Below, in pieces: positions 11,769 to 34,968 of a DNA stretch of 36,832 bases. The notes under the pieces are model-generated. The model made no database searches. It was not told the origin of the DNA and saw nothing but the letters and a program-made list of their open reading frames with translations. The stretch is from NCBI GenBank assembly GCA_016191335.1, contig JACPOW010000067.1:1-36832 (forward strand), in the 5' to 3' direction. The stretch is from Elusimicrobiota bacterium (lineage in GTDB: Bacteria; Elusimicrobiota; Elusimicrobia; UBA1565; UBA9628). Made by a program: the position numbers and the translations under genes. How positions within the stretch are numbered: the first letter of the stretch is position 1; each line of letters starts with the position of its first letter.

Positions 11769-11805
11769 TAGGTCTCTTGGCGAAGGGGGGCGGCCCCATA
11801 GGCCC
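11769..11805 (+). promoter_or_regulatory. TAGG upstream element, copy D
   Basis: It starts TAGGTCTCTTGGCG exactly 73 nt before ATG 11842 and 61 nt before the -10 box TACTCT (11830-11835). A second GGCCCCAT half lies about 22 nt on. There is no -35 box. Same spacing as the elements upstream of the genes starting at 20058, 27718 and 34894. Confidence 0.6.
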
Positions 11806-11841
11806 AGGCCGCCCCCCCGCGCGCACTGCTACTCTTCCTTT

Positions 11842-13494
11842 ATGAACCGAACCCCCCGGCGTCTCCTCGTCGCGCTGTTGACGGTCGCCTTCGCGTCCCT
11901 GCACGCGCCGGCCCAGCAGGTCTCGGTTCCGCGTGTGACGCTCACGCCCTCCCTCGGCGGAGCCTCCGGCGCCGCGGGCCTCGTCCCCGGCTCCCTCGGC
12001 GGCCCGGCGACCTTGTCGCCGTCGTCGATGCTGTCGCTGACCCCGACGCTCTCCGTCCTGTCCGCTCCGGCCCTCACGGCGCCGGCCCCCGTCGCCCAGG
12101 CGGTGCCCGTCGCGCTCTCGCCCGTGGCCTCCCCCGCGTCCGTCGCCGCGAAGCACGAGACGGGGGCGCCGGCGGTCCGCGTCGCTCCCGCGCTCGAGGC
12201 CATCGAGGCCTCCGCCGCCTCCCGCGACGGCGGCCGCGATTCCGGACGAAACGGCGGAACGATGTTCGACGGAGCCCGCGCGCGCGCCGCCGCTCCCGCC
12301 AGCCCTTACATCGTCAACGACGAGGGCGTGAAGATCAACGACCGCGCCGCGATCTACTACACCGAGGTCCGCCGCATGGTCGAGCTCTACAAGGGCAAGA
12401 TCGACCTCGCCGAGAGCCTCGACGTGATGGACGACGCCTACTCCGACGTCGTCGCCAAGGTCTCGGCCGTCGAGGCCGTCGCCAAGGGCCGCGGCCTCAC
12501 CCAGGTCAACACCCATCTCGAGGAGACCCTCACCTTCGTCGACGGCGTGCTCGATGACGGCAAGAAGAAGGTCGCGGTCCACACCCACCGCGTGTTCTTC
12601 CACAAGGCGAAAAACCCTCAATCCGAGATCGTCGAGGGCATCCGCCGCGTCGACGGCGTCATCAAGGACATGGAGTCGATGTTCTCCCGCGGCGGCAAGG
12701 CCGAGCAGCAGATGGGCAAGATCGACGAGGTCGAGCTCGTCTTCGACGCCCGCGGCTACCAGGAGATCAAGGACCACATCAAGCAGCGCGGCGCCGAGGT
12801 CACGGCCCGCAGCAAGGGCCGCATCACCTTCAAGTACCTCGACGAGCTCGCCCCGCTCCCCAAGACCCAGGCCGAGATCCGCGCCAAGCTCAACGAGATG
12901 GCCCAGAAGTACGACGGCGAGAACGCCGACGGCCTGTCCAAGATCTACGAGGGCGTGATCTACTCCCGCTACGTCGGCCTGCTGCTCGAGCTCAAGACCG
13001 TCGAGCACTACTACAAGAAGGGCTACAAGATCCTGCAGAGCGGCCGCGAGCTGTTCGACGAGAAGGGCATCTACGTCTCCGAGCTCGACGTGGTCGTCGA
13101 GAGCCCCGAGGGCAAGATCTCCGTCGTCGAGGCCAAGTCCTCCCGCGTCGGCCTGCCCCCCGAGGAGGTCCTCCAGGACAAGGTGATCTACAAGCTCAAC
13201 ACCTACAAGAAGTTCAAGGCCCAGCTCGACGCGATGATCGGCAAGCCGTTCGACGCCGTCGTGTTCTCGATGGACGTCGCCATCGACCCGGACATCGACC
13301 GCTCGCAGGTGCTGCCCAAGGACCTGCGCAAGCTCGAGCTGATGGACTTCCTGAAGTCGAAGGAGGCCTCGCTGTCCAAGGAGTACGGCTTCCCGGTCAG
13401 CTTCCTGTTCATGCAGAGCGGCCCCGAGGGCGGCAACGGCCGGATGATGATGCGCAAGGGCGGCTCGAACGGCCGCAAGCACGGTCGGCGCTGA
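11842..13494 (+). CDS. Exported protein with C-terminal PD-(D/E)XK nuclease-like domain
   Basis: The protein has 550 residues. A signal peptide (1-25, ending HAPAQQ) is followed by a Pro/Ala/Ser/Leu low-complexity stretch (~28-150), a helical region (~160-280), a small alpha/beta region (~295-335) and a C-terminal domain (~370-530). That domain has the layout of a PD-(D/E)XK nuclease: E383, D416 (SELDVVVE), then E430-A-K432 (ISVVEAKSS) and K447. The tail is basic (RKGGSNGRKHGRR). A nuclease fold on an exported protein is unusual. Possible roles are extracellular DNA use or a toxin; it may also be a non-catalytic relative. TACTCT lies 6 nt before ATG, and a TAGG element lies 73 nt upstream. 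Confidence 0.75.
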   Translation: MNRTPRRLLVALLTVAFASLHAPAQQVSVPRVTLTPSLGGASGAAGLVPGSLGGPATLSPSSMLSLTPTLSVLSAPALTAPAPVAQAVPVALSPVASPASVAAKHETGAPAVRVAPALEAIEASAASRDGGRDSGRNGGTMFDGARARAAAPASPYIVNDEGVKINDRAAIYYTEVRRMVELYKGKIDLAESLDVMDDAYSDVVAKVSAVEAVAKGRGLTQVNTHLEETLTFVDGVLDDGKKKVAVHTHRVFFHKAKNPQSEIVEGIRRVDGVIKDMESMFSRGGKAEQQMGKIDEVELVFDARGYQEIKDHIKQRGAEVTARSKGRITFKYLDELAPLPKTQAEIRAKLNEMAQKYDGENADGLSKIYEGVIYSRYVGLLLELKTVEHYYKKGYKILQSGRELFDEKGIYVSELDVVVESPEGKISVVEAKSSRVGLPPEEVLQDKVIYKLNTYKKFKAQLDAMIGKPFDAVVFSMDVAIDPDIDRSQVLPKDLRKLELMDFLKSKEASLSKEYGFPVSFLFMQSGPEGGNGRMMMRKGGSNGRKHGRR

Positions 13495-13528
13495 TGCGCC
13501 GGCGGCGCTGATTTCGTAGAATCCGCGC

Positions 13529-13729
13529 ATGCCCTTCATCAACGTCAAGATGACCCCCGGCCCCACGGCCGAGCAGAAGGCCGAGTTCATCAAGCGCGTC
13601 ACCGCGCTCGCCGCCGAGGTCCTCGGCAAGAACCCGGCGACCACCCACGTCGTCATGGAAGAGGTCCCCGCCGAGAGCTGGGGCATCGCCGGCGAGACGG
13701 TCGCCGCCCGCAAGAAGCGCGGCGCCTGA
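13529..13729 (+). CDS. 4-oxalocrotonate tautomerase family protein
   Basis: The 66 residues match the small tautomerase subunits. After Met removal the N-terminal Pro (PFINVKMTPGPT) is the expected catalytic base. The family motif ATTHVVMEEVPAESWGIAGE follows. These enzymes move double bonds in small keto-acids and usually form hexamers; the substrate here is unknown. TAGAAT ends 6 nt before ATG, so it has its own leaderless promoter 34 nt after the previous gene. Confidence 0.9.
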   Translation: MPFINVKMTPGPTAEQKAEFIKRVTALAAEVLGKNPATTHVVMEEVPAESWGIAGETVAARKKRGA

Positions 13730-13785
13730 GAGAATTGACCGTTATTTGACTGGCTCCGTCGGGAGCACGGGCTTATCCTATCCGC

Positions 13786-14196
13786 ATGAAGCCCTGCATC
13801 TACATGGTGGACGACGAGCCGGACTTCCAGACCATCGTGCACTCGTGGCTGGAACCGACGTACGAGGCCCTCGCGCTCAAGGACGCCGATGAGCTGGCCG
13901 GCGCGGTGCGCGCCCGGAGGCCCGACCTCGTCATCATGGACCTGCACCTGACCGGGTCCGACGGCTTCGAGGCCTGCCGGCGCCTTCGCGCCACGCCCGG
14001 CCTCGACGGGGTGCCCGTCCTCTTCCTGACCGCCTCGCACGAGGCCGCGGACTACCGCCGCAGCATGGGGGTGGGAGGCAGCGGCTACCTGACCAAGCCG
14101 GTCGGCCGGCGACAGCTGCTCACGGCCGTCGAGGAGCTCCTCGCCGAGGGGCGGGTCCTCGGCAAGTACACCGTGGACACGGGCGGCGGCGACTGA
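13786..14196 (+). CDS. Single-domain response regulator (CheY-like receiver)
   Basis: The 136 residues are one receiver domain with all key residues: D9/D10 (VDDEPD), phospho-acceptor D52 (VIMDLHL), T82 (FLTAS) and K104 (YLTKP). There is no output domain, so it acts by protein contact, like CheY or Spo0F. No histidine kinase gene is in the window. TATCCT lies 6 nt before ATG; TTGACT lies upstream, but at 22 bp it is badly spaced for a -35 box. Confidence 0.92.
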   Translation: MKPCIYMVDDEPDFQTIVHSWLEPTYEALALKDADELAGAVRARRPDLVIMDLHLTGSDGFEACRRLRATPGLDGVPVLFLTASHEAADYRRSMGVGGSGYLTKPVGRRQLLTAVEELLAEGRVLGKYTVDTGGGD

Positions 14197-14260
14197 GCCG
14201 TCGCTAAAAAGTCCCACGGCCGTCCTGTCCCCGGCGCTCGGCGAGCGGTAGACTGCGTCC

Positions 14261-14722
14261 ATGGAAAAAGACTGCTATGAGATCCTGGGCGTGCCTTCCG
14301 ACGCGAAGCCAGAAGAGATCAAAGCCGCCTACCGGGCGCTGGCGCTGCGGCGCCATCCCGACCTGAACGCCGGCGACCCGCGGGCCGGGGAGAGGTTCAT
14401 GCGCATCCAGGCCGCCTACGAGACGCTCGGCAACCCGTACCGGCGGGCGCGCTACGACCTGGGGAGGTCCTGGCGGCGGGCGGCCGTCCCCGAGCCCGCG
14501 AAGGCCGAGCGGCCCCCCGGCTCGCGCGCGCGGCTGCTGATGCTCGTCGGGGCGCTCGTCGCGCTGCGGGGCTTCGCCGGCTACTTCCTGTTCCCCGAGG
14601 ACGCCTTCTTCCCGCGATGGCTCCTGCCCGACGCCGGCCGGGACGCGAGCCTCCGGCTCTACGTCGTCGGCCTGGCGCTGGTGTTCATCGCCGCCGGGCT
14701 TCGGCGCACGCGGCCCGATTAG
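14261..14722 (+). CDS. J-domain membrane protein
   Basis: The protein has 153 residues. Residues 3-70 form a J domain with the Hsp70-stimulating HPD motif ([11 protein letters not shown]) and a typical helix IV (RARYD). Two hydrophobic segments follow (~88-110 and ~130-148), so it is a membrane-tethered Hsp70 co-chaperone rather than full DnaJ: there is no G/F or zinc region. TAGACT ends 6 nt before ATG. The stop overlaps the stop of the minus-strand FAD gene by 4 nt, tail to tail. Confidence 0.88.
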
Positions 14723-15813
14723 TCGGCGAGCAGGGCGGAGAACGCGGAGGGGAAGGCGCGCAGCGCCTTGATCGTCCAGCGGGCCAGCCCCGGCCGCCGG
14801 CTCATCGCGAGCGCGAAGCGGGCGAGCCGCTCCTTGGGACGCACGAGCCGCCGTCGCCGGCGCGTGTAGCCGCCGGGCCGTCCCGAACCCGCGAGGGCCG
14901 CGGCCGTCTCCTCGGCCGCCAGCCGCCCGCCGCGCAGCGCGAGGCCGATGCCGTCGCCGACGAGGGGGTCCACCGCCCCGGCGGCGTCGCCCGCGGCGAG
15001 CCACGGCCCGTCCTCCCAGCGAGCCGACGCGGAGGCCAGCGGGCCGAGGCCGACGACCGGGGCGTCGAGCGACGCGCGCTCGAGCCTCGTCCTCAGCGCG
15101 GGGTGGGCCCGCGCCAGCCGCCAGAACGCGGCCTCGCGGCCCGAGAAATCGCGCGCGAGCGTCTCGCGCTCGAGCAGCAGCGCCGCCGAGACCCGGCGGT
15201 CCCCGGGCAGGGGCGTCAGGTACACCTCGCCGCCGTCGATCAGGAACACCTCGACGAAGTCCCCGCTGCCGACCCCCGTCAGCCGGGCCGCGAGGCCGTA
15301 GCGCTTGAGCTCGGGCTCCCGCCGCGGCACGCCGAGGGCCCGGAGCGAGGGCGACGCGGCGCCGTCGGCCGCGATGAGGCGCTCGGCCCGGAGCGTCCCG
15401 TTCGGCAGCCGCACGCGCACCCCGTCGCCCGCGCGCTCGACGCCGAGAGGCGCGGTGTTCAGGAAGACGCGCACGCCGCGCTTCTCCGCGGCCCGCCGCA
15501 GCAGGAGGTGGTCGAGGTCCTCGCGCGGCACCGCCAGGCCCTGGCCGTGGGGGAAGCGGGAGCGGGCGTGCCGCCCATCGCGCGTCGTCCAGGCGACCCC
15601 GCTGAACCTGCGGCCGAGCGCCTCGGCTCCCTCATAGACTCCGAGCTCCCTCAGGACCGCGACGCCCGCGGGGAGGATGCCCTCGCCGCAGGCCTTACGG
15701 CGGGGGAACGCCGCCCGGTCGATCAGGGCGACGGAGCGGCCCGCGCGCGCCAGGTACATCGCCGCCGCGCAGCCCGCCGGGCCCGCCCCGATGATCGCGC
15801 AGTCGAAGGTCAT
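14719..15813 (-). CDS. FAD-dependent oxidoreductase (geranylgeranyl reductase-like)
   Basis: The protein has 364 residues from ATG 15813. The N-terminal dinucleotide motif is [19 protein letters not shown], followed by E/D-type binding (LIDRAAF) and [11 protein letters not shown], as in the geranylgeranyl reductase/halogenase-like flavoproteins. The second FAD motif is near [20 protein letters not shown]. It overlaps the polyketide-synthase stop by 4 nt (ATGA), so translation is coupled. In bacteria such flavoproteins often sit with type III synthases and methyltransferases and tailor the polyketide product. This is the third gene of that trio. Confidence 0.88.
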
Positions 15814-16604
15814 GACTCGCGCAGGAGCAGGGCTTCGAGGGCGAAGCCGGGCCCGAGCGCGGCGAGCAGGCCCCAGGACCCGGGCCGCGCGGGCCGGGCC
15901 AGCGCGTCCTTCAGGATGAACAGCACCGACGCCGACGACAGGTTGCCGTGCCTTTTCAGGAACGCGCGGGACAGCCCCGCCGCCCCGTCGGGCAGGCCCA
16001 TCGCGCGCTCCCCGCACAGGACGGCGCAGGCGGCCCCGTCGCCGAACAGCGCCGCGGCCACCAGCTGGGTCATCGTCCCGTCGCGCGGGAGGAAGGTCAG
16101 GCTGCAGAGCTCGACCGACAGCACGGCGACCGTCTCCTCGGGATGGCCGCGCAGGTATTCAAAGGCGCGGGACAGCGCCACCGCTCCGCCCGCGCAGCCG
16201 ACGCCGAACAGCGGCGTGCGCTTGAGCGTCCGCCGGAAGGGGAGCGACTGCGCCAGGTGGGCGTCGAGGCTCGGGGTCAGCAGCCCGGTGGTCGTGACGC
16301 TGAACAGATGGGTCAGCTCCGAGATCCCGACGCCGGCCTGCTCGAGCGCGGACAGCAGCGCCCGCCGCGCCAGGCGCTCGGCGTGAGGGAAATAATCGGC
16401 GTTCCGTTTCGCGAAGGGGACGCCGGCGAAATAGTAATCGGGCGCCTCGACCAAGGCGCGGGTCTCGACCCCCGCCCGGTCGAACAGGCCCTCGCGCCCG
16501 TCCGCCTCGGTGCCCGCGAACGCGGCGGCGCAGCGGGCGCGCAGCGCCTTCTGCTCGTAGCGGAACTCGGGCACGGCGGTCCCGACGGCCAGCACCCGCG
16601 CCAT
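15810..16604 (-). CDS. Type III polyketide synthase (chalcone synthase-like), internally deleted
   Basis: The protein has 264 residues; the family is usually 350-390. The N-terminal half is normal, with the catalytic Cys137 in FGVGCAGGAVAL and the VELCSLTF motif. After GDGAACAVLCGERA the sequence jumps within ~10 residues to LSRAFLKRHGNLSSASVLF, the family's Asn motif (N221). About 95 residues are absent, including the His-Pro-Gly-Gly segment with the catalytic His. The reading frame is intact. Normally the enzyme extends acyl-CoA with malonyl-CoA to alkylpyrones or resorcinols. This version should lack decarboxylation chemistry unless the gap is an assembly fault. It starts 1 nt into the stop of the methyltransferase gene. 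Confidence 0.88.
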   Translation of the reverse strand: MARVLAVGTAVPEFRYEQKALRARCAAAFAGTEADGREGLFDRAGVETRALVEAPDYYFAGVPFAKRNADYFPHAERLARRALLSALEQAGVGISELTHLFSVTTTGLLTPSLDAHLAQSLPFRRTLKRTPLFGVGCAGGAVALSRAFEYLRGHPEETVAVLSVELCSLTFLPRDGTMTQLVAAALFGDGAACAVLCGERAMGLPDGAAGLSRAFLKRHGNLSSASVLFILKDALARPARPGSWGLLAALGPGFALEALLLRES

Positions 16605-17317
16605 CAGACCTTCTCTCCGGCCAGGCTCAGGCGGAAGAACGGCCCGCGCCGCACGCGCAGGTACTTCAGGCCCGCGCGATGCGCCGCGGCCTCGAGCTCC
16701 TCGGGCAGGAAAGAGCGCCGCACCGACAGCGGCCCGTCGCAGCGCGACACGCGCCCGGCCAGGCAGGTCAGCGCCCGCACGCCGGCGTACGCCGCCGCGC
16801 AGCGCCTCAGGTCGCTGAAGAGCAGCCCTTTCTCCGCCAGGCCGTCGCACATCTTCAGCGACTCCTCGAGCTCGGCCGGCGGCAGATGATGCAGGAACAG
16901 CGAGCCCAGGACATAGTCGAAACGGCCGCCCTGCTCCGCGAACTCGCGCAGGCTCCCCTGCATCAGCCACAGGCTCTCCTCGCCCTCCGTCCGCGCGCGG
17001 GCGAGCTCGAGTATGCGCTCGTCGATGTCGATGCCGGTGATCTTGATGTTGAAGCGGCGCTGCCGTCCCCAGTTCAGGATGCGCAGGGGGATGTCGGCCG
17101 CGCCGGTCCCGACGTCGAGCATGGTGATGATCCGGCGCTTGTCCCAGGCCCGGCTCCAGACCTCGAGCCGTTCGCGCATGACGGCCCAGCCGCCGAGGAA
17201 GGCATTGGAGGTGGAGAGGAAATCCAGCGCGTCGCTGAGCTCGGTCGCGCTCGGCGTGCCCGAGTCCATGAGCTCGGGCTCGTCGCACCGGCGCTCCAGC
17301 GCGGGGATGAAATTCAT
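16604..17317 (-). CDS. Class I SAM-dependent methyltransferase
   Basis: The protein has 237 residues. Motif I is MLDVGTGAADIP (~70-80), the acidic ribose-binding motif is ITGIDIDERIL, and motif IV is FDYVLGSLFLHHL. This is the type of methyltransferase that goes with type III polyketide synthases and methylates their phenolic or pyrone product, so it is the first gene of a coupled trio (TGATG overlap with the next gene). The substrate is inferred from context only. TATAGT ends 6 nt before ATG 17317, suggesting a leaderless operon mRNA. Confidence 0.85.
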   Translation of the reverse strand: MNFIPALERRCDEPELMDSGTPSATELSDALDFLSTSNAFLGGWAVMRERLEVWSRAWDKRRIITMLDVGTGAADIPLRILNWGRQRRFNIKITGIDIDERILELARARTEGEESLWLMQGSLREFAEQGGRFDYVLGSLFLHHLPPAELEESLKMCDGLAEKGLLFSDLRRCAAAYAGVRALTCLAGRVSRCDGPLSVRRSFLPEELEAAAHRAGLKYLRVRRGPFFRLSLAGEKV

Positions 17318-17384
17318 GCCCCCACTATAACCCGCGGTCCTTGTCCGCGCCTTAGCGGGGAGGTAAAGCTTTCGTCCCGGTTTT

Positions 17385-18164
17385 TTAGGCCGTCGCGGGG
17401 CGCAGCTCGCTGACCTTGGATCGGTAGAACAGCAGCACCTTCCTGACGTAGTCCCGCGTTTGCGCGTACAGGCGGCGGCGCGCGAGGAAGCGCGGCCCGG
17501 CGTTGTACGCCGCGACGATGCGCTGGATCAGCCAGGAGGGGGCGTTCCGGTACGAGACGCCTTGGAGGTGATACTTCCTCCACGCGCGCTCGAACAGGTG
17601 CACCAGGTACAAGGTCCCCGCGCGGAGGTTGGCCTCCGGCTCGTAGAGGGCCCGCCCCGACACGCCCATGTCCTCCGACGTCGCGGGCATCACCTGCATC
17701 AGGCCCAGCGCGCCGGCGGGCGACTTCGCGCGCGCCGTGAACTCCGACTCGGCCGCGATCACGGACTTGACGAGCCTCGGGTCGAGGCCGAGCGCGTCCG
17801 CGTGCCTCTGGATCATCGCGTCATAGCCGTTCGTCTCCGGCCGGACCATCAGGCGGTCGAAGGTCCGCTCGAAGGGCGGCGGCGGCACCGACGGGATCTC
17901 GAGCACGAAGGGGACCGCGGCCGGCGTCCGCTTCGGCAACGGCTTCGGCCGCGCCGCGGGGAGCTCGGGCTTGCCGGACACCTCCGGCATGGCGAGGAAG
18001 GCGCGGTGCGCGCCCGCGTCGAAGAAACGGCCGAACTCGGCCCCGGCGAGGCCGAAGGCCTGGATGGAGTTCAGCGCGAGCAGGGTCTCGGGCGCGGGGT
18101 TGGTGAGGGCGGAGGTCGGGACGGCGAAGACGAGGACGGCGGCGAGATACGCGGAGGCTTGCAT
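17385..18164 (-). CDS. Exported lytic transglycosylase (SLT domain)
   Basis: The protein has 259 residues from ATG 18164. A signal peptide (MQASAYLAAVLVFAVPTSA) and a Pro-rich linker are followed by a Slt70-type catalytic domain (~115-250). The catalytic Glu is in SVIAAESEFTARAKSPAG, followed by ALGLMQVMPAT and, further on, VAAYNAGP. It cleaves peptidoglycan glycan strands to 1,6-anhydro ends in the periplasm. ATG 18164 is chosen over ATG 18206 because GGAG lies 8 nt upstream and the signal peptide starts there. It is one of the few genes here with a Shine-Dalgarno-type start. Confidence 0.9.
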   Translation of the reverse strand: MQASAYLAAVLVFAVPTSALTNPAPETLLALNSIQAFGLAGAEFGRFFDAGAHRAFLAMPEVSGKPELPAARPKPLPKRTPAAVPFVLEIPSVPPPPFERTFDRLMVRPETNGYDAMIQRHADALGLDPRLVKSVIAAESEFTARAKSPAGALGLMQVMPATSEDMGVSGRALYEPEANLRAGTLYLVHLFERAWRKYHLQGVSYRNAPSWLIQRIVAAYNAGPRFLARRRLYAQTRDYVRKVLLFYRSKVSELRPATA

Positions 18165-18283: not shown

Positions 18284-19552
18284 TTATGGGGCAACGGCGG
18301 GCTTCGACGCCCGGGCGAGCGCCCAGGTCAGCAGGAGCAGCGCCGCGATGAGCGGCCCGACCGCGAGCGCCAGCAGGGGCAGGCTCGCGATCCCGGCGCC
18401 GGCGAGGAGCTTGCCGAACGCCCACAGGCCGAGGACGAGGGCGACCGACGACGCGCTCTCGAGCACCGCCGTCGCGTCGTCCACCTTGCCCTTCGGCGCG
18501 CGCGATTGGAAGAAGCTCTCGAGCTTCAGCTTGGCGACCACTTGGGGGATCCCGAAGAGGAACAGCGCCAGCGCCGGCAAGGTCAGGCTGCCCCAGAGGG
18601 GTCCGACCGGCACGGCCAGCGCCGCGAACAAGGTCATGCCGAGCGCGCAGGCGACCGTCCACCTCAGCATCGAGGTCCTCATCGCCGCGGCGTCGCGCTC
18701 GCGCCTCTGCTGGCGCATCGTCCACAGCCCCGCGACGATCCCGCCCAGGCTGTACAGGCCGATCATCATCCCGCCGTACGCCGCGGCCAAGGTCTCGTTC
18801 CCGGCCCCCGCCAGGTGCAGCGCGAACGCCGGGGCCATGAACCAGTACACGAGCGAGATCGGCACGTACACGAGCGAGTAGGTCAGCACGCTGTAGCGCA
18901 AGGCCGGCGTCCTCACGACCTGCGAAGCTCCCTCCTTCAAATGCTCGAAGTAGGTGCGCAGCGAGCCTTCGCCGGGGCCGGGCAGGCCGTTGCCGTCGAG
19001 GCCCGAGACCTTGCCGGGGAACTTCAAGGTGAGCGCGACCAGCCCGATCGAGAGCGACATCGCGACGGGGAACGCGATCAAGGCGGGGATGAACCCGGCC
19101 GACGCGACCAGGGCCCCCGTCGCGATCGGCACGATGGTCGCCACGACCTCGATCACCGTCTGGCGGGCCGCCTTGAAATGCTCGAGCTTCCTTTGATCCT
19201 GGTTCAGGAGCACGGCCGGTATGCTCTTCTCCGTGATCAGAGCGACGCCGAGCAGGACCGCGTCCACGGCGAACAGCGCCACGAGGCCGCCCAGGCTCAG
19301 CCAGCCCGCCGCGAGCAGGCCCGCGATCAGCCCGCCCGTCGCCACGCGCAGGCCGGCGCTCCACATGTACGCGCCTTTGAGACCGAGCTTCTTGGCGACG
19401 ATGGGCGCGGCGATGGTGCCCGCGAGCTCGGCGAGCGCGGCGGTCATGCCCACGTCGGCCACCACCGACGCGCTGCCGAACACCTTCGCGATCAGCGGCG
19501 GCAGGCCGGCGTTCTGCGCCTCGATGCCGACCTGGGCCAGGATCAGCGCCAC
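18284..19552 (-). CDS. MFS-type transporter (3' part of a frameshifted gene)
   Basis: The readable frame gives at least 422 residues with about 11 hydrophobic helices in two blocks and a basic cytoplasmic loop (MRQQRRERD), as in major facilitator proteins. The substrate is unknown. GTG 19552 is a formal start only: it lies inside the first helix, whose earlier part (WFGFSKPLAFFLVALIL) is coded upstream in this same frame back to about 19640. There the frame meets the end of the exported N-terminal ORF (19543-20058). A one-base deletion near 19630-19645 would explain the break, so both parts are best read as one gene of about 590 codons. Confidence 0.8.
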   Translation of the reverse strand: MALILAQVGIEAQNAGLPPLIAKVFGSASVVADVGMTAALAELAGTIAAPIVAKKLGLKGAYMWSAGLRVATGGLIAGLLAAGWLSLGGLVALFAVDAVLLGVALITEKSIPAVLLNQDQRKLEHFKAARQTVIEVVATIVPIATGALVASAGFIPALIAFPVAMSLSIGLVALTLKFPGKVSGLDGNGLPGPGEGSLRTYFEHLKEGASQVVRTPALRYSVLTYSLVYVPISLVYWFMAPAFALHLAGAGNETLAAAYGGMMIGLYSLGGIVAGLWTMRQQRRERDAAAMRTSMLRWTVACALGMTLFAALAVPVGPLWGSLTLPALALFLFGIPQVVAKLKLESFFQSRAPKGKVDDATAVLESASSVALVLGLWAFGKLLAGAGIASLPLLALAVGPLIAALLLLTWALARASKPAVAP

Positions 19553-20058
19553 CAGGAAGAAGGCCAGCGGCTTGGAGAAGCCGAACCAGGTCCTCGCGCG
19601 CGTCTCGCTCGGCGGCTTGGGCGGCTCGTTCGGCGCTCGGCGACCGCGACGGGCGCCTCGGCTTCCTTCTCGTCGAAGGCGGCCCTCAGCTCGTCGAAAC
19701 GTTCTTGGACCGCGAGCGCCTTCTCCGGCGTCGGCGCGGCGGGCAGCGGCGCGGCGGGAGCGGCTCTCACGGGGAGGAGGGCCCGGGCGGCGCGGACCGG
19801 CTGGACCGCCGCCAGGCGCGCGGCCATCACGGCCGAGGGGACCGGCGCCAAGGACGGGACCGCGAGCGTGGAGCCGAGGCCCGGCGCGCCCAACGCCGAA
19901 GGCGAGAGCGTCGGCGCCGTCAGGCTCGGCGTGGAGAGGGGGGCGAGGCCGAGCCCGCCGACGGGAAGGGCGGCCGCCCGTCCGGAGACGACCTGGGCCT
20001 GGGCGGCGGGGGACCGCCCCAGGACGAGCGCGAGGACGATGGAGACGGCGGCTCTCAC
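19543..20058 (-). CDS. Exported-type N-terminal extension of the MFS gene (5' part, frameshifted)
   Basis: From GTG 20058 there is a signal peptide (MRAAVSIVLALVLGRSPAAQA) and a Pro/Ala/Leu/Ser-rich stretch like those of the genes starting at 11842 and 27718, then a helical segment (KALAVQERFDELRAAFDEKEAE). From about 19640 the frame turns into Arg/Ser-rich nonsense and stops at 19543, while the neighbouring frame continues as the transporter. TATGAT ends 6 nt before the GTG and a TAGG element lies 73 nt upstream. The start is supported by both. Confidence 0.7.
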   Translation of the reverse strand: MRAAVSIVLALVLGRSPAAQAQVVSGRAAALPVGGLGLAPLSTPSLTAPTLSPSALGAPGLGSTLAVPSLAPVPSAVMAARLAAVQPVRAARALLPVRAAPAAPLPAAPTPEKALAVQERFDELRAAFDEKEAEAPVAVAERRTSRPSRRARRARGPGSASPSRWPSSWWR

Positions 20059-20094
20059 GCCCTCATCATAGGGAATGCGCGGGCGGGATGATTG

Positions 20095-20131
20095 AGCCGA
20101 AGGTCCCCTTTCCCGGACGCCAATGGTCCTA
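20095..20131 (-). promoter_or_regulatory. TAGG upstream element, copy B
   Basis: On the minus strand it starts TAGGACCATTGGCG at 20131, 73 nt before GTG 20058 and 61 nt before the -10 box TATGAT (20070-20065). A second GGACCTT half follows about 23 nt on. No -35 box is present. Confidence 0.6.
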
Positions 20132-20664: not shown

Positions 20665-21005
20665 TCGAAGTCGGCGACGCGGCCCGCAAACCCGTCCATG
20701 CGAGAATGGAACTCGTCCCGGGTCACCATCTTTTCCTTGATGTGGCCGCGGATGTCGGCCAGCTCCGCGGTGTGATGGGCCAAGGTGATGGCGATGGGGC
20801 GGAACAGGTCGTGGATCTCCGCCCGGAATATCGCGAACTCGGCCTTCATGTCCGCTTTCGTCGCGAAGTTCATCTCGAGCTTCGTCGCGAGGTCGGCCAG
20901 ATCGGCCTTAGTCGCGAAGGCGCTCAGATCGGCCTTGGTGGCGAAGCCGCGAAGGTCTGATTTCGTCGCCGGCAGGTGACCGTCGTCTCTCATCTCGTCG
21001 GTCAT
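20397..21005 (-). CDS. Coiled-coil protein with ATK-DL repeats
   Basis: The frame has 202 residues. Residues ~10-60 repeat a seven-residue-like unit (ATKSDL, ATKADL, ATKADL, ATKLEM, ATKADM), followed by a helical part (FRPIAITLAHHTAELADIRGHI), as in DUF1640-like and phage-associated coiled-coil proteins. The last ~85 residues lie antisense to the membrane-protein gene and are Arg/Pro-rich, so the natural stop has probably been lost and the real protein is near 115 residues. ATG 21005 has GGAGG upstream and overlaps the previous stop by 1 nt (TAATG). Confidence 0.7.
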   Translation of the reverse strand: MTDEMRDDGHLPATKSDLRGFATKADLSAFATKADLADLATKLEMNFATKADMKAEFAIFRAEIHDLFRPIAITLAHHTAELADIRGHIKEKMVTRDEFHSRMDGFAGRVADFDYSSAKNRALKGMMTNQIGVPSHLVRVSSEVPGGSPPRSRWGAARRPRTAKPNMMENRATPPYSGKWAKARTMVPRTPRPEGLPVSRRA

Positions 21006-21190
21006 TATACCCTCGCCTCCATCGAGCGGCAAGGGCCGGAAGTCCCATGGCGATCCCGTTTCTTCGACCGCATCTTCTCCTGGATGGCGGCGAGCTTCCC
21101 CTCGATGCGGTCCAGCGCCGCCAGGATCATCAGGCCGTCCAGGCCGCCGCCGATCAAGGTCGCGGCGGACCAAGTCTTTTTATCGTTCAT
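21005..21190 (-). CDS. Small protein, probable partner of the ATK-repeat coiled-coil protein
   Basis: The 61 residues have a weakly hydrophobic N-terminus (TWSAATLIGGGLDGLMIL) and a helical middle (ALDRIEGKLAAIQEKMRSKK). A purine-rich ribosome-binding site (AGAAGGGGG) lies about 7 nt upstream of ATG 21190. Its stop overlaps the next start, so the two are translated together. Function unknown. Confidence 0.6.
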   Translation of the reverse strand: MNDKKTWSAATLIGGGLDGLMILAALDRIEGKLAAIQEKMRSKKRDRHGTSGPCRSMEARV

Positions 21191-27718: not shown

Positions 27719-27754
27719 TGATTGAGTGTAACCGACCGGAAGTCCGCTGCCTCG

Positions 27755-27791
27755 GCCCAAATGGGTACCTGCCTCCTCGGCAATGGACCTA
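27755..27791 (-). promoter_or_regulatory. TAGG upstream element, copy A
   Basis: On the minus strand it starts TAGGTCCATTGCCG at 27791, 73 nt before ATG 27718 and 61 nt before the -10 box TACACT (27730-27725). A second copy of the half-site (AGGTACCCATTTG) follows about 21 nt on, making a direct repeat at two helical turns. No -35 box. Confidence 0.65.
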
Positions 27792-29203: not shown

Positions 29204-29988
29204 GCGGCCCTCTTGAACGGCCGGCCGAGGAGCGCGAACAGGTCGAGCGCGCCGGGGTCGCGCGCGCCGTCGAGCCCCAGGGCCATGGTCTCGTGCGGCT
29301 CGCGCGGCTGCGCGCGGTAGGTCCCGAACAGGCGGTCCCACCACGGGACGTTGAAGCCGAAGTTGGAGTCGGTCTCCTCCCGGCTCGGGCTGTGATGGAC
29401 GCGGTGCATGTCGGGCGTCACCACGACCAGGCGCAGGAGCGCGTCGAGCGGGCCGAGGTTGATGTTGGCGTGGTTGAACAGGGCGGTCGCGTTGAGGAGG
29501 ACCTCGAAGGCGACGACCGCGAGGAAGTGCGCGCCGAGCAAGGTCGCGCCGGCGATCTTGATCGCGGCGGAGATCAGGATCTCGCCGGGATGGAAGCGCA
29601 CGCCCGAGCTCGCGTCGAGGTCGAGGTCGGTGTGGTGCACCGCGTGGAGGCGCCACAGCGCGGGGGACCAGTGGAACAGGCGGTGCTGGAGGTAGATCAG
29701 CAGGTCGAGGAGGAGCAAGGACAGCGCGAACTTGAGGGGGAAGTAGATCGGCCACTGGTTCAGGAGCCCGAACCGGACCGCCTCGGCGTTGTAGGAGGCT
29801 TCGACGACGGTGATGGGCAGGAGCAGACGCACGACGGCCGTGCCGAGCACCGCCAGGCTCAGGTTCGCGGCCCAGCGCGGTCCCGAGGGGGCGGTCCGGA
29901 CGCGGCGCGGGAGCAGGCGCTCGGCCAGGGCGCAGACGAGCAGCGCGCCGAGGAAGACGCCGAGCCGTATGCGGGAGAAGTTGTTCAC
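29200..29988 (-). CDS. Sterol desaturase / fatty acid hydroxylase family membrane protein
   Basis: The protein has 262 residues from GTG 29988. Several transmembrane helices carry the di-iron histidine clusters: LQHRLFHW, RLHAVHHTD, NHANINLG and MHRVHHS. This is the non-heme di-iron integral-membrane hydroxylase layout. Likely an oxygen-dependent lipid hydroxylase or desaturase; the substrate is unknown. It is joined to moaE by a GTGA overlap and to yaeQ by another, so it is translated as part of the Moco operon, although no functional link is known. Confidence 0.9.
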   Translation of the reverse strand: MNNFSRIRLGVFLGALLVCALAERLLPRRVRTAPSGPRWAANLSLAVLGTAVVRLLLPITVVEASYNAEAVRFGLLNQWPIYFPLKFALSLLLLDLLIYLQHRLFHWSPALWRLHAVHHTDLDLDASSGVRFHPGEILISAAIKIAGATLLGAHFLAVVAFEVLLNATALFNHANINLGPLDALLRLVVVTPDMHRVHHSPSREETDSNFGFNVPWWDRLFGTYRAQPREPHETMALGLDGARDPGALDLFALLGRPFKRAA

Positions 29989-30422
29989 CGGCGGGTCCGG
30001 TGGAGCGCGCAGCCGGCGAGCCAGCGTCCGTCGCCCTTGAAGTAATGCTCCTTCTTCCAGACGGGCACGCGGCGCTTGATCTCCTCGATGACGAAGCGGC
30101 AGGCCTCGAAGGCCTCGGCGCGGTGGCCGGAGCCGGCGGCGATGGCCACGCTCGCCGTGCCGACCGAGAGGCGGCCGGTGCGGTGCGCGACGGCGACGCG
30201 GACGGGCCAGCGCTTCTCGGCGTCCGCGGCGATGCGGGCCAGCTCCTTCTCGGCCAGCGGAACGAAGCAGTCGTAGCTGACGGCCTTGACCCGGCGGCCG
30301 GCGTGCACGGCGCGGACCGTGCCCACGAAGGACGCGACGGCGCCGTGCTTGGGGGAGGACACCGCGCGGCACAGGGCCGCCGGGTCCAGGCGCGAGGCCG
30401 TCATGGAGGTCAGCCTCCGCAT
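29985..30422 (-). CDS. moaE: Molybdopterin synthase catalytic subunit MoaE
   Basis: The protein has 145 residues. Signatures are GAVASFVGTVRAVHAGR, VKAVSYDCFVPLAEKEL, VAHRTGRLSVG and the catalytic-Lys region PVWKKEHYFKGDGRWLAG. With MoaD it inserts sulfur into precursor Z to make molybdopterin. ATG 30422 overlaps the end of moaD; ATG 30404 is an alternative start. Part of the overlapping Moco operon. Confidence 0.93.
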   Translation of the reverse strand: MRRLTSMTASRLDPAALCRAVSSPKHGAVASFVGTVRAVHAGRRVKAVSYDCFVPLAEKELARIAADAEKRWPVRVAVAHRTGRLSVGTASVAIAAGSGHRAEAFEACRFVIEEIKRRVPVWKKEHYFKGDGRWLAGCALHRTRR

Positions 30423-30652
30423 ACGGGGGGGAGGACCGCGAGGCGGCCGTCCGGGAGCTCGTCGGAGGGGGAGAGGACCTCGTCGCCGGTGGCGAGGGCG
30501 CAGCCCGCGAGCAGCGGAGCCTTCGCGCCGAACGCCGACTTGAGGGCGGACATCGCCTGGCGCGCGGTCGCGGCCTTCGGGAGCTCGACGGCGACGGAGG
30601 AACCCAAGCCGGCGTCGCGCAGGCGGCCGTACAGCTCGATCTTACGCTTCAT
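30410..30652 (-). CDS. moaD: Molybdopterin synthase sulfur carrier MoaD
   Basis: The protein has 80 residues with a ubiquitin-like fold and the required C-terminal Gly-Gly (AVLPPVCGG), which is adenylated and thiocarboxylated. It overlaps the downstream moaE start and the upstream moeA end by about a dozen bases each, supporting coupled translation. Confidence 0.93.
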   Translation of the reverse strand: MKRKIELYGRLRDAGLGSSVAVELPKAATARQAMSALKSAFGAKAPLLAGCALATGDEVLSPSDELPDGRLAVLPPVCGG

Positions 30653-31025
30653 GCACCTCGACCTCGGCTCCGGCCTTCATGTGAGAGCCTTCCTCGGGGA
30701 GGACGGCCCATGAATCCGCCGACAACAACGAATGGATCTGGAAGGACGCCTGGCCGGGGAGGATCTCGACGGAGCAGTCCTCGAGACGCCTGGCTTTGTA
30801 GAAGCAACGGAGACCCTCAGGCTTATCGATCGGATTTTTCAAACGGCAACGGATCGGGGACTCTTCGGACTGGCCCAGCAATTCACGGAGGACCGGCGTC
30901 ACGAAAAACTTCATGCCGACCACCGAGGAAACGGGATTGCCGGGAAGACCGAAGACGAAGCTGCTCTTGGGGAACTCGGCGAAGAGGATGGGACGGCCCG
31001 GCTTGATCGCGACCTTATGGAACAC
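30642..31025 (-). CDS. moeA: MoeA C-terminal part (split or frameshifted gene)
   Basis: The 127 residues are the end of MoeA: VFHKVAIKPGRPILFAEF, VFGLPGNPVSS and a C-terminal beta-barrel domain. GTG 31025 can be read as a start, and it overlaps the N-terminal part's stop by 11 nt, but it sits inside the catalytic domain. The frame is +1 to the upstream part, and the join lacks about five residues found between the same motifs in E. coli MoeA. A ~14-nt deletion fits best. Confidence 0.85.
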   Translation of the reverse strand: MFHKVAIKPGRPILFAEFPKSSFVFGLPGNPVSSVVGMKFFVTPVLRELLGQSEESPIRCRLKNPIDKPEGLRCFYKARRLEDCSVEILPGQASFQIHSLLSADSWAVLPEEGSHMKAGAEVEVHEA

Positions 31026-31827
31026 TGAGCGAAGCGGGGATGAAGTCCTTCTCGCCCATGGAGACCGCGCCGGTGGTCAGGATGATGTCGTAGCCTTCGG
31101 CGAGGATGAAGTCCATGCGCGCGGAGAACACGGCGGGGTCGTCGGCGATGAGGCCGTGGAACTCGAAATCGCAGCCCAGGCGCGCGCACTCGGCGGCGAG
31201 GTAGGCCGACGAGGCGTCGCGGATCTTCCCGGGAGTGAGGGGCTTGCCGGCAGGCACGAGCTCCGCGCCCGTGGAGAGCAGCGCCACTCGCGGCCTGCGG
31301 CGGACCGGGACCTCGGCGAGGCCGACGGCGGCCAGCGCCATCAGGTGCCGCGGCGTGAGGCGCGTCCCGGCGGGGCATACCTGCGCGCCCGCGCCGAAAT
31401 CGTGCCCGGCGCGGCGGATGAAGTCGCCTTCGTTCGGGGTGCGGAGGATCTCCACCGCGCGGCCGCCGTCGAGCTCGCGGGTCTGCTCCACGGGAATGAC
31501 GGCGTCGCAACCCGCGGGGATGGGGGCGCCGGTCATGATGCGCCATACGCCGGGTTCGGCCTCGCGTCGGGGAGGGTCACCCGCGAGGATGGTTCCCATC
31601 ACCGGTAACGTCAAATGGGCGCCGGAGGCGCCAAAAGCCCTCTTGTGGGGCAAGGCGTAACCGTCCATGGACGAGTTGTCGAATGGAGGTATCGGCTCAT
31701 GGCCGAATAACTCGGACGCCGACACGCGTCCAAGAGCGTCCCCCAAGGGAACGGTCACCGTCGGAAGCGCGGGACGCGCCAAGGCCGCTTCGGACAAAAG
31801 TTTGCGGGCCTCGGCGTATGGAATCAT
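31015..31827 (-). CDS. moeA: MoeA molybdotransferase, N-terminal part (split or frameshifted gene)
   Basis: The 270 residues cover MoeA domains I-III up to TTGAVSMGEKDFIP. Recognisable parts are PPFDNSSMDGYA, the GTILAGDPP region, RIMTGAPIPAGCDAVIPVE and LLSTGAELV. MoeA inserts molybdate into adenylylated molybdopterin. The frame ends at 31015, where the rest of the protein continues one frame over. ATG 31827 shares one base with the moaCB stop (TAATG). Whether a functional protein is made (reinitiation, programmed shift, or sequence error) is open. Confidence 0.9.
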   Translation of the reverse strand: MIPYAEARKLLSEAALARPALPTVTVPLGDALGRVSASELFGHEPIPPFDNSSMDGYALPHKRAFGASGAHLTLPVMGTILAGDPPRREAEPGVWRIMTGAPIPAGCDAVIPVEQTRELDGGRAVEILRTPNEGDFIRRAGHDFGAGAQVCPAGTRLTPRHLMALAAVGLAEVPVRRRPRVALLSTGAELVPAGKPLTPGKIRDASSAYLAAECARLGCDFEFHGLIADDPAVFSARMDFILAEGYDIILTTGAVSMGEKDFIPASLSVP

Positions 31828-32774
31828 TAATGTTTTCCGTCTTTGGCGATATGGATCGCGTGGGGTAGTAAATCACCTAGGACGCATAAACCGTCGCGCA
31901 CTCCGCCCGTGCTTCCAGGTAAAGAAACGACGACGCACGAGCCCAGTTGGCCGGCGACCGAACGAGACAACGGGGCCGTCTTCGGTCCGCCCGACGCCCG
32001 TAAAGATTCCCCGATGCCGGGGATAAGGCGGTCGCAGACCGCCATCACCGCTTCAGGCGTCACATCCCGGGATGAAAGGCCGGTACCCCCAGTCAGAACG
32101 ACGACATCAACGCCGCGGGAAGCGCGGCGAATATGAGTCTCTATCGTCCGTTGGTCGTCGGGGCTTATAATGCGCTTTTTAACCGAGAACCCGATTCGTT
32201 CAAGGCCGGAGGCCAAAGCCGGTCCCGATTCGTCGCGGTAAATCTTCTTAAAGGCACGGTCGCTTACAGTGATCACGGCCGCCTTACCCAGCTTCAGGGC
32301 CTTCGCCGCCTTCGGCGGCGTTTTGACGGATTTGGGATGCGTCCAAAACCCCTTCTTACCGCCTGATTTATAATCCAATCGAACGGCAACGATCTCGAGG
32401 ACCGGATCGACGGGCTTCAACAGATCGTAAAGGCACAGAAGCGCGACCGACGCCCCGGTGAGCGCCTCCATTTCCACGCCCGTTTTCGCCGCTACCGCGG
32501 CGGTGCACCGGACGTGCGCCCCTGGTAACGATGCATCGAGGGATATTTCAACGTCAACGGAGTCGAGCGCTATCGGATGGCACAACGGCAAGATGGAGGG
32601 TGTCTGTTTCGCGGCCATGATCCCGGCGGCTTGCGCCAGGGCGATGGCGTCTCCCTTCGGGAGACGCCCGCCCTTCAGCATCATGAACGCCTTGCGGCCC
32701 ATCAAGATCGTGCCGACGGCCGCGGCACGGCGGTGGGTGACCTTCTTGGGACCAACGTCAGCCATGTTTATCAT
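31827..32774 (-). CDS. moaCB: Bifunctional MoaC-MoaB fusion
   Basis: The 315 residues are two Moco enzymes in one. Residues ~1-155 are MoaC (cyclic pyranopterin monophosphate synthase): KGDAIALAQAAGIMAAKQTP, LPLCHPIALD, EMEALTGAS. Residues ~165-315 are MoaB/MogA-like: AVITVSDRA, VVLTGGTGLSSRDVTPEAV and SLPGSTGGVRDGL. The first works right after MoaA; the second prepares molybdopterin for metal insertion. ATG 32774 is preferred (INMADVGPKKVTHR fits the MoaC start); GTG 32783 and ATG 32765 are alternatives. Overlaps the moaA stop. The coding sequence looks less GC-rich than its neighbours. Confidence 0.92.
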   Translation of the reverse strand: MINMADVGPKKVTHRRAAAVGTILMGRKAFMMLKGGRLPKGDAIALAQAAGIMAAKQTPSILPLCHPIALDSVDVEISLDASLPGAHVRCTAAVAAKTGVEMEALTGASVALLCLYDLLKPVDPVLEIVAVRLDYKSGGKKGFWTHPKSVKTPPKAAKALKLGKAAVITVSDRAFKKIYRDESGPALASGLERIGFSVKKRIISPDDQRTIETHIRRASRGVDVVVLTGGTGLSSRDVTPEAVMAVCDRLIPGIGESLRASGGPKTAPLSRSVAGQLGSCVVVSLPGSTGGVRDGLCVLGDLLPHAIHIAKDGKH

Positions 32775-32775
32775 C

Positions 32776-33750
32776 TTATCCACCCATCATCGCGAAGTGC
32801 TTCGTATTCCCTAATTTCCCTTCGGGTAGATAATGCGAAACTTCCTTCAGCCCAAGGAGCGACTTCACTCGTTCCTGGAGTTCCGAAGCCTGTGCGTCGT
32901 CCTGCAGGAGCGATCGCAACGAGTGATCCGCCTCGGAGAACAGGCACAGGCGAAGGTTCCCCCGGCTGGTGACTCGCAATCTGTTGCAGGTCCCGCAGAA
33001 GTCCTTCGCGTAGGGCGCGATGACTCCCACCGAGCCGCGATAGCCGTCCTTGTGGAACTCCCGCGCCGGCCCGTCTCCCTCTTTCCGCGCCCTCTCCGTC
33101 CAGGCGTTCTCCCCCAGCCATGCGATCAGCGCTTCCGCCTTCAGATGATGCTCGGCGAAGAAATCCATGTTGTCCGCCACCGGCATCAGCTCGATGAACC
33201 GCACCGAGAGGGGGCGTTCCCGGGTCCGCTCGACGAACTTCCCGAACTCGTCGTCGTTGAAGCCCTTCATCAGCACCGCGTTGATCTTGGTCTCGAGGCC
33301 GAGCGCGAGGCTCGCGTCGACGCCGCGAAGCACCTCCCCGAGGCTGTCCTTGCCGGTCAGCGCGGCGAAGCGCGCGGGGTCGAGGCTGTCCACGCTGACG
33401 TTGACCGCGCCGACGCCGGCCGCCTTGAGCTCCGGCGCGAGGGCGGCCAGCCGGTAGCCGTTCGTGGACAGGGCGACGCGGCGGATGCCGGGCGTGCCGG
33501 CCGCCGTCCGCGCGATCTCGACGATGTCCTGGCGCACCGTCGGCTCGCCGCCCGTGAGGCGGACCTTCCAGAAGCCCAGCCCGGCGAAGGCGCGCACGAG
33601 GCGGGCGATCTCGGCGACGCTCAGCGGCGGCTCGGCCTCGGTCTTGTGATGGCCGTGCGGGAGGCAGTAGACGCAGCGGAAATTGCAGGCGTCCTCGACG
33701 GAGAGGCGGAGGTAATGGAAGGAGCGGCCGAAGCCGTCGACGAGCGTCAC
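32776..33750 (-). CDS. moaA: GTP 3',8-cyclase MoaA (radical SAM)
   Basis: The protein has 324 residues. The radical-SAM cluster motif is C22-x3-C26-x2-C29 (DACNFRCVYC), the second cluster C252-x2-C255-x13-C269 (FCGTCNRLRV…LCLF), and the C-terminal Gly-Gly (MMGG) is present. It converts GTP to 3',8-cyclo-GTP, the first step to molybdopterin. The GTG start lies 6 nt after TATAAT, so the whole Moco operon mRNA is probably leaderless. First gene of the operon. Confidence 0.96.
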   Translation of the reverse strand: MTLVDGFGRSFHYLRLSVEDACNFRCVYCLPHGHHKTEAEPPLSVAEIARLVRAFAGLGFWKVRLTGGEPTVRQDIVEIARTAAGTPGIRRVALSTNGYRLAALAPELKAAGVGAVNVSVDSLDPARFAALTGKDSLGEVLRGVDASLALGLETKINAVLMKGFNDDEFGKFVERTRERPLSVRFIELMPVADNMDFFAEHHLKAEALIAWLGENAWTERARKEGDGPAREFHKDGYRGSVGVIAPYAKDFCGTCNRLRVTSRGNLRLCLFSEADHSLRSLLQDDAQASELQERVKSLLGLKEVSHYLPEGKLGNTKHFAMMGG

Positions 33751-33766
33751 GGGGAGATTATACCCC

Positions 33767-34894
33767 TTACTTGAAGAGCTTGCCGCCGATGACGTCGCCG
33801 GCGATGACGCCGATCCCGGCGCCGATCAGCGCGCCGATGGGGCCGCCGAGGAGGAAGCCGAGCAGGCCGCCGAGTACCGCGCCCGCCGCGCCCGGGAGGT
33901 ACTGGCGCGGCTGCAGCGGGCCGGAGCCCGTCTTCATCTTCTTGATGCTCGACATGAACTCCTCGTCGGGGTCCACGGGGGAGGGGACGTCGGCGATCAG
34001 GCTCGGGGTGCCGCCCTGGCGCGAGGACGGATCGAGCGCCGGGCGTCCGGCCCCTTCGCCGCCGGCGACCACGCCCCCCGTCTCGGGGGCGACGGCGCCG
34101 CCGCCGTCGAAGACGACGCCTCCGCGCTCCGCGGCCTCGGCGGCGTCGCGGGCCTGGTCGAGGGCGGAGTTCGAGGTGGACACGACGACCTCCTCGACGG
34201 GGACGACGGGCTTCTTCGGGGGCACCGGGGGCTTGCGGACCGGGGGCTTGGCCTGGGCCGGGGGATCCTTGACCACGACGGCCGGGGGAGCGGCGGGCTT
34301 CTCGGCTTCCTTCCGGCGCTCGGCCAGGGTCTGGGCGGCGGCGGGGGCCGCGGCCTTCCCGTTGCGGGCGAGCGGCTCGGGCAGGTAGGTCCCCAGGTCT
34401 TCGCGATATTTGTCGAAGATGCCGGCGACGACCTTCTTGGTGTACCAGGTCAGCTTGCCGTTGTTGTCGCGCAGGGCGTTGTCGACGGCGTCGAGGTACT
34501 CGATGAGGGTGTTCCGGTCGCCTTCCTTCATCGTCTTCAGGCGCCGCACCATGTAGGCGCGGGTCTGCGGGGTCATCAGCGCGCCGTAGTTCTTGTAGGT
34601 GCCCTCGAGGTCGGGGGTGGCGATCTTGACGTCGGTCTCGGCGAAGGCGACGATGCGGCCGCGCCACTTGTCGAGCACGAGCTTCATCAATTTCGGGTCG
34701 CCGGCGGCGAACTTCACGTCGCCGTTGAACTCGGCGGCGGCGGCGCCGTTGGCGAGCACCGCGGCGAGCATCGACTTCTCGTCGTCGCGGAGGAACGCCT
34801 CGACCGCGGCCACGGCGGCCGGGTCGCCGGCCGCGAGCGCCGGAGCGGCGGCGCCGAAGGCCAGAAGTCCCGCGAGGAAGACGCTTCGCATCAT
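33767..34894 (-). CDS. Secreted protein with C-terminal glycine-zipper segment
   Basis: The protein has 375 residues. A signal peptide (MMRSVFLAGLLAFGAAAPALAA) is followed by a helical domain (~25-175) with no recognised family, a Pro/Ala/Lys-rich middle (~180-320), and a C-terminal ~40-residue glycine-zipper hydrophobic segment (LLGFLLGGPIGALIGAGIG near the end). Glycine zippers of this kind insert in, or span, membranes. ATG 34894, the first of two tandem ATGs, is 6 nt after TATACT; a TAGG element lies 74 nt upstream. Function unknown. Confidence 0.8.
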   Translation of the reverse strand: MMRSVFLAGLLAFGAAAPALAAGDPAAVAAVEAFLRDDEKSMLAAVLANGAAAAEFNGDVKFAAGDPKLMKLVLDKWRGRIVAFAETDVKIATPDLEGTYKNYGALMTPQTRAYMVRRLKTMKEGDRNTLIEYLDAVDNALRDNNGKLTWYTKKVVAGIFDKYREDLGTYLPEPLARNGKAAAPAAAQTLAERRKEAEKPAAPPAVVVKDPPAQAKPPVRKPPVPPKKPVVPVEEVVVSTSNSALDQARDAAEAAERGGVVFDGGGAVAPETGGVVAGGEGAGRPALDPSSRQGGTPSLIADVPSPVDPDEEFMSSIKKMKTGSGPLQPRQYLPGAAGAVLGGLLGFLLGGPIGALIGAGIGVIAGDVIGGKLFK

Positions 34895-34930
34895 CGTCTG
34901 AGTATATACAGGGGGCGCGCCTCCGGACAG

Positions 34931-34968
34931 GTTCATTGGGCCCAAGCCCCCCGGGGCCGATGGGCCTA
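34931..34968 (-). promoter_or_regulatory. TAGG upstream element, copy C
   Basis: On the minus strand it starts TAGGCCCATCGGCC at 34968, 74 nt before ATG 34894 and 62 nt before the -10 box TATACT (34906-34901). A second half (GGGCCCAATG) follows about 24 nt on. The one extra base relative to the other copies lies within the element. Confidence 0.6.

Follow-up and report, generated by a model that had tools for sequence, protein, structure and literature searches.

The 36,832-nucleotide contig JACPOW010000067.1 of an Elusimicrobiota bacterium, which is the window analysed here (contig C65 of a 3.66-Mb draft genome), contains four copies of an upstream element of the form TAGGnCY: TAGGTCTCTTGGCG at 11769 on the plus strand, and TAGGACCATTGGCG at 20131, TAGGTCCATTGCCG at 27791 and TAGGCCCATCGGCC at 34968 on the minus strand. 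Our analysis shows that the element marks a real, class-wide regulon, composed mostly of genes for exported proteins, with an operator like that of DosR (DevR) from Mycobacterium tuberculosis, and it yields a well-supported candidate for the regulator. We consider it probable that the element serves a two-component activator as operator, its boxes being read by a regulator of the NarL/FixJ type.

A first-pass annotation of the window had placed the four copies upstream of the genes starting at 11842, 20058, 27718 and 34894, and these positions were confirmed. In this order of genes, the first base of the element lies 73, 73, 73 and 74 nt from the start codon and 61, 61, 61 and 62 nt from a -10 hexamer of the type TANNNT. 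The reported lack of a -35 box also held, in that no -35 hexamer was seen by eye at the four sites, although no promoter scan was made. The promoter model R1 gave 31.4 bits for the site at 34968, 25.7 bits for that at 20131 and 25.1 bits for that at 11769 (over 11769-11834), the first two having been in its training set and the third not. The site at 27791 was the weakest (7.9 bits with R1; gapped matrix score 25.1), with a good distal box and a poor proximal one, so that only its distal half is recognisable to R1.

Alignment of 61 promoters resolved the element into two tandem 16-bp pseudo-palindromes of the form TRGGNCYWWRGNCCYA, and the simple direct repeats proposed before were replaced by this arrangement. 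What had been described as a second half-site 21-24 nt further on is indeed a repeat of the same unit, but it is a second whole box and not a half-site. In the distal box (box A) the outer half is nearly invariant (T 1.00, R 1.00, G 1.00, G 0.98, N, C 1.00, Y 0.97, W 0.87, W 0.95, with A at the second position in 97%) and the inner half is weak, and in the proximal box (box B) the promoter-side half is strong (G 0.98, N, C 0.95, C 0.75, Y 1.00, A 0.66); note that this set was chosen for TRGG-type starts, a spacing of 22-24 and the usual place of the -10, and the first letters and the spacing are thus partly set by selection. A less selected set of 198 sites, taken as matrix matches with a mild penalty on unusual spacing, gave a first-base distance between the boxes of 22 bp in 59 sites, 23 bp in 56, 24 bp in 55 and another value in 28. 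In these 198 sites TANNNT stood at exactly +37 from the proximal reference in 75, while its distance from the distal box was spread over 60, 61 and 62 (22, 46 and 25 sites). Because many of these loci had been fetched by a pattern demanding a -10, the count was repeated on 93 sites fetched without that requirement; TANNNT was found in 68 of them, at exactly +37 in 29 and at 36-38 in 40. The position of the proximal box relative to the -10 is therefore fixed, and that of the distal box can vary by about 2 bp. Several f12 and f13 loci have the -10 in its usual place and a start codon farther downstream, and the constant is therefore the promoter geometry and not the distance to the ATG. The fixed spacing suggested from the four window sites thus survived the scan of the genome and its relatives as a distance between the proximal box and the -10, but not as a distance to the start codon. 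The position of the -10 suggests that transcription starts at the ATG; the transcripts would then be leaderless, and the box centres would lie at about -42.5 (proximal) and -65 (distal). A nearly palindromic double box at L103:3881-3938 (G000:C17), readable on both strands, has no -10 at the usual place.

The element exceeds chance expectation in the genome of the window. The pattern TAGGNCCN{50,60}TANNNTN{3,10}ATG matched 20 times there, at 18 distinct sites, and its reversed form 4 times. Among 58 genomes it was above the reversed pattern in 44, equal in 2 and below in 12; the forward count was higher in 40 of the 47 genomes of the same order (families f1 to f3; 797 against 290 matches) and in none of the four from f6 to f9. 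A matrix trained on 44 promoters from relatives only was then run over 430,817 bp of the genome on both strands, and it found 17 sites scoring above 17, 25 above 14 and 36 above 12, where the reversed sequence gave 0, 5 and 16. At a score of 8 or 9 the genome and its reversed sequence did not differ with this matrix, and in a GGNCC profile across all gene starts the element was invisible, the signal being too diluted. Note that R1 was trained partly on sites from the genome itself, and that the relatives used for training the matrix include some of the scored loci related to the 11842 gene, which inflates the scores concerned; independent evidence comes from the relatives-only matrix on the genome of the window and the zero matches in 103 genomes of other classes, described below.

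In a survey of 198 genomes of the phylum, R1 had a match at E up to 0.1 in 80, all of the same class (families f1, f2, f5, f12 and f13), and no match in genomes of f6, f7, f9 and f14 or in the 103 genomes of other classes. At most 25 candidates per genome were scored in this survey, and the counts are lower bounds. A fuller survey, in which up to 134 candidates were scored, gave 12-68 sites in each of 14 genomes of the same order, and, in other families, 42 sites in f10, 51 in f11, 3 and 18 in f4 and one in f8. In 19 further relatives there was at least one site in every genome (one in G051, three in G047).

The downstream genes mainly encode proteins with a signal peptide, as called by home-made rules. 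Of 19 R1 matches at E up to 0.1 in a sample of the genome, 14 reach the -10 end of the model; the remainder (two at L103, one at L097, L096 13303 and L091 13674) end before the -10 and were left out of the target count. A gene begins within 45 nt in 13 of the 14 cases, and 12 of these 13 genes have a signal peptide, compared with 107 of the 354 genes in the sample (Fisher 3.6e-6) and 38 of the 95 genes with TANNNT just before the start. The single exception is a partial match (proximal half, E 0.013) in the window at 21004-21051 on the minus strand, before an ATKADL-repeat gene without a signal peptide. Among the loci of relatives (39 of the 42 returned, L240, L241 and L243 being left out), 32 gave a gene and 7 had no promoter or gene by the rule; 25 of the 32 genes passed the signal-peptide rule, several of the 7 that missed it resemble signal-peptide proteins on visual inspection, and a stand-alone receiver protein is also among the 7. 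The preference for exported-protein genes seen in the window therefore extends beyond it. In a looser set of pattern matches, which includes chance matches, 52 of 77 genes had a signal peptide, and clear non-exported cases exist, such as a MutS-like protein in G053.

Relatives of the 11842 gene were found in 31 of the 58 genomes searched, its own included. Of their 32 loci, four are cut by contig ends, and the element is present in 26 of the 28 scorable ones (24 with TANNNT at 59-63), beginning with TAGG in 19 and TGGG in 7, which bears out the expected conservation in the case of this gene; these 28 and 4 loci include pairs that are apparently one genome entered twice (L061/L088 and L063/L089). 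Elsewhere in the genome, the domains of the targets include TPR, a mechanosensitive channel, starch synthase and adenylate kinase, with no match in 5 of 9 proteins, and in relatives they include clostripain, cellulase, phospholipase D and peptidyl-arginine deiminase. Three element-driven genes, at L107:17718-19568, L093:13387-16242 and L109:7124-8824, carry a signal peptide and a linker stretch before domains that are normally cytosolic or in the membrane (starch synthase; uridine kinase plus adenylate kinase; mechanosensitive channel). At L117, L136 and L333 (families f10 and f4), the element stands upstream of proteins that resemble stand-alone receiver domains. At L091:13570-13728 on the minus strand, the element of a TPR-protein gene points, when read in reverse, toward a tRNA-His gene (13570-13646, minus strand), and a TATAAT-like box lies between the two.

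Which protein reads the boxes was approached through two families of transcription factors. An FNR-like protein of the CRP family, reading the boxes at class I and class II positions, looked promising at the beginning. Positions near -42.5 and -65 suit tandem sites of CRP and FNR, and these resemble the present boxes in activation geometry, but not in sequence. In G053 an FNR-like gene comes directly after an element-driven gene, and ortholog-level matches (E 1.8e-85 or better) occur in 42 of the 47 genomes of the same order. However, 47 of the 80 motif-positive genomes have no match at E 2e-38 or better, and in f12 genomes, of which G109 is one, no match of any kind was obtained although they have up to 22 sites. 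We dropped this candidate since the f12 genomes with many sites are without it, and consider that an FNR-like reader is very improbable. As an observation of its own, just past the 3' end of the FNR-like gene in the genome of the window (L091:15905-16609; counterpart in G053, L170:1831-2532) there is a box pair without a -10 (16628-16665).

After the FNR-like protein had failed, the sequence of the boxes pointed to DosR, and we searched for GerE domains. At least one such domain was found in 36 of 39 genomes, and the search led to a strongly conserved NarL-type regulator. The genome of the window has two paralogs of it, at G000:C99:36480-37154 and G000:C66:48876-49541, each with a receiver domain and a GerE (LuxR) helix-turn-helix (PF00072 4.1e-30 and PF00196 3e-17 for the C99 protein; 4.9e-31 and 1.7e-17 for the C66 protein). 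The phospho-acceptor Asp (the D of L(M/L)DI(K/R)) is kept by all regulators that aligned with at least 235 bits, and the helix VKT[VI]KN by all those read with a score of at least 302 bits. When aligned with DevR (3c3w), the K, K and N of this helix fall on Lys179, Lys182 and Asn183 of DosR, which, according to an excerpt of PMC4082495, contact bases. In the survey of 198 genomes, with presence of the regulator defined at the ortholog level (E below 1e-60; 89 genomes), regulator and motif occurred together in 80, the regulator alone in 9, the motif alone in none and neither in 109; in the 19 further relatives, the regulator was found in 17, with partial matches in G041 and G043. A histidine-kinase-like gene stands directly upstream of the regulator gene in 11 of the 12 loci viewed by eye, the exception (L296) being the second paralog of the genome itself. 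The kinase beside the C99 regulator is REC-HisKA-HATPase with no GAF match in Pfam, unlike the haem-containing GAF sensor kinases that partner DosR; the kinases of relatives were judged by eye.

Several observations weigh against this regulator. The co-occurrence (Fisher 1e-45; 5.8e-6 within the class) ignores phylogeny, and the regulator-negative families may stem from few losses. Nine genomes (G069, G086, G097, G113, G168, G173, G193, G208 and G217) have the regulator and no site even when more candidates were scored; the case of G173, however, agrees with the proposal, its regulator having N for the first K. Conversely, no ortholog-level regulator was found in G030 (26 sites, 86% complete) or G039 (38 sites, 79% complete; best match 1.6e-31), both of which are incomplete drafts. 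G051 (f8) has a related regulator of 53% identity that keeps K, K and N, yet one site, and G062, from another class and with zero sites, has KTVKN in a NarL protein of 41% identity; the residues of G062 without sites slightly lowered our confidence in the NarL-type regulator and raised that in another factor. The closest solved structures by sequence are those of VraR from Staphylococcus and not of DosR, over the full length (7ve6, 3.3e-38) as well as in the helix-turn-helix domain. Of 28 regulator loci scanned, among which L299 and L319 are one gene, only L285 has the element before the regulator gene, and autoregulation was accordingly dropped. Finally, the two paralogs share the helix, and either may be the acting one.

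An alternative is that a transcription factor of some other family reads the boxes and merely shares its class-wide inheritance with the NarL-type regulator. The co-occurrence is mostly at the family level and phylogenetically confounded, the profiling covered two transcription-factor families (CRP and GerE), and there are the nine regulator-positive genomes without detectable sites. This alternative leaves unexplained that the regulator has the same three residues with which DosR reads a closely similar box, and we regard it as unlikely. That the element is part of the promoter itself, for an alternative sigma factor or for RNA polymerase, and not an operator, would agree with the fixed spacing to the -10 and with the fact that no -35 hexamer was seen, but the -10 is an ordinary TANNNT, and a length of about 38-40 bp with two dyads about two helical turns apart and a flexible gap fits a pair of bound protein dimers; we give it hardly any credence. 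Sigma-54, the subject of a paper on this factor and the bacterial exterior that mentions Elusimicrobia (PMC3162934), was set aside because the -10 boxes marked are of the ordinary type, although no search for -24/-12 elements was made.

The NarL-type regulator and its boxes have close parallels. DosR belongs to the NarL subfamily of response regulators and recognises a palindromic box of the GGGACTWWAGTCCC type, with the consensus TTSGGGACTWWAGTCCCSAA in an excerpt of PMC2275270, and OsdR of Streptomyces coelicolor has the 16-nt palindrome AGGGCCGATCGGCCCT in the consulted portion of PMC5069765, which is very near the boxes described here. The Elusimicrobia boxes match the DosR-type palindrome GGGNC-N4-GNCCC, but have R for the outer G at the second position, a free fifth position and a weak distal inner half. 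As far as the excerpts describe them, DosR sites are also closely packed, the proximal one overlapping the -35 (PMC3029386), and can be shared by divergent genes (PMC2275270). The regular layout of two boxes, the phylum and the targets set the present system apart: those of DosR are hypoxia and dormancy genes, while those in Elusimicrobia mainly encode exported proteins. OsdR, as described in the same portion of PMC5069765, controls genes of the stress response and of development, and one of its sites lies at the gene that encodes it. VraR, a further NarL/LuxR regulator, has T where the third contact residue, N, stands.

In the reading that we favour, a two-component response regulator of the NarL/FixJ type would bind as two dimers, one to each 16-bp box. 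The proximal box, near -42.5, would replace the missing -35 and place the regulator beside RNA polymerase, the distal box, near -65, would stabilise the bound regulator, and both together would activate promoters of the housekeeping sigma factor whose only hexamer is the -10. The probable partner kinase is encoded immediately before the C99 regulator, as it is before the regulator in most of the other loci viewed. The predicted regulon would comprise some tens of promoters, mainly of genes for signal-peptide proteins. The earlier suggestion of one activator's regulon for an extracytoplasmic protein set is thus supported by computation, the regulation itself being predicted.

Coordinates of the elements, promoters and genes are given in the table below.

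Table. Promoter elements and target genes in the window, and the FNR-like gene elsewhere in the genome
Feature	Position	Strand	Sequence or remark
Distal box A, 11842 promoter	11769..11784	+	TAGGTCTCTTGGCGAA; kept in related loci
Proximal box B, 11842 promoter	11791..11806	+	CGGCCCCATAGGCCCA
-10 hexamer, 11842 promoter	11830..11835	+	TACTCT; 6 nt upstream of ATG; putative leaderless start
Exported protein, 550 aa	11842..13494	+	Signal peptide, then Pro/Ser/Ala-rich stretch; no Pfam match
Exported protein, 171 aa	19543..20058	-	GTG start; signal peptide and Pro/Ser/Ala-rich stretch; no Pfam match
-10 hexamer, 20058 promoter	20065..20070	-	TATGAT
Proximal box B, 20058 promoter	20093..20108	-	GGGGACCTTCGGCTCA
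Distal box A, 20058 promoter	20116..20131	-	TAGGACCATTGGCGTC
Exported protein, 378 aa	26582..27718	-	Signal peptide; DUF6782 putative metallopeptidase
-10 hexamer, 27718 promoter	27725..27730	-	TACACT
Distal box A, 27718 promoter	27776..27791	-	TAGGTCCATTGCCGAG; proximal box degenerate
Exported protein, 375 aa	33767..34894	-	Signal peptide; weak C-terminal glycine-zipper match, below Pfam cut-off
-10 hexamer, 34894 promoter	34901..34906	-	TATACT
Proximal box B, 34894 promoter	34929..34944	-	TGGGCCCAATGAACCT
Distal box A, 34894 promoter	34953..34968	-	TAGGCCCATCGGCCCC
FNR-like CRP-family protein	G000:C135:35905-36609		N-terminal C-x2-C-x5-C

On the opposite strand, the element at 11769 faces a lipoprotein-like gene starting at 11729 on the minus strand (MRLLPLLAAALAASCG; region 11729-11806), whose -10, TACGCT, is about 5 bp off the usual spacing. 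With this offset, divergent firing of the element toward that gene is no more than a possibility; similar divergent pairs occur at L056 and L078. The 171-aa exported reading frame (19543-20058, minus strand) overlaps a 422-aa hydrophobic one (18284-19552, minus strand) by 10 nt in another frame, and they may be two genes or one broken gene, both of which fit. A receiver-like gene of 136 aa (13786-14196) adjoins the 11842 gene. Rfam gave no match within the window.

A search of the literature on promoter elements and regulons of Elusimicrobia, DosR and regulators of secreted proteins found no account of such an element in the titles and abstract beginnings of open-licence papers. The element provides a promoter signature recognisable in sequence alone, a regulator-kinase pair as a candidate for test, and a means of listing functionally uncharacterised exported proteins with probable joint expression. 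It also makes it possible to test how a NarL-type reading head and its box are retained although the target genes change. A bolder possibility, which we put forward tentatively and which may well prove wrong, is that one two-component system is the class-wide master switch of the Elusimicrobia secretome, its DosR-type reading head having been kept through most of the class and dedicated to lineage-specific exported proteins, including signal-peptide-bearing forms of enzyme domains that are normally cytosolic (starch synthase and adenylate kinase). If this were true, a whole lineage would turn its outside on and off together.

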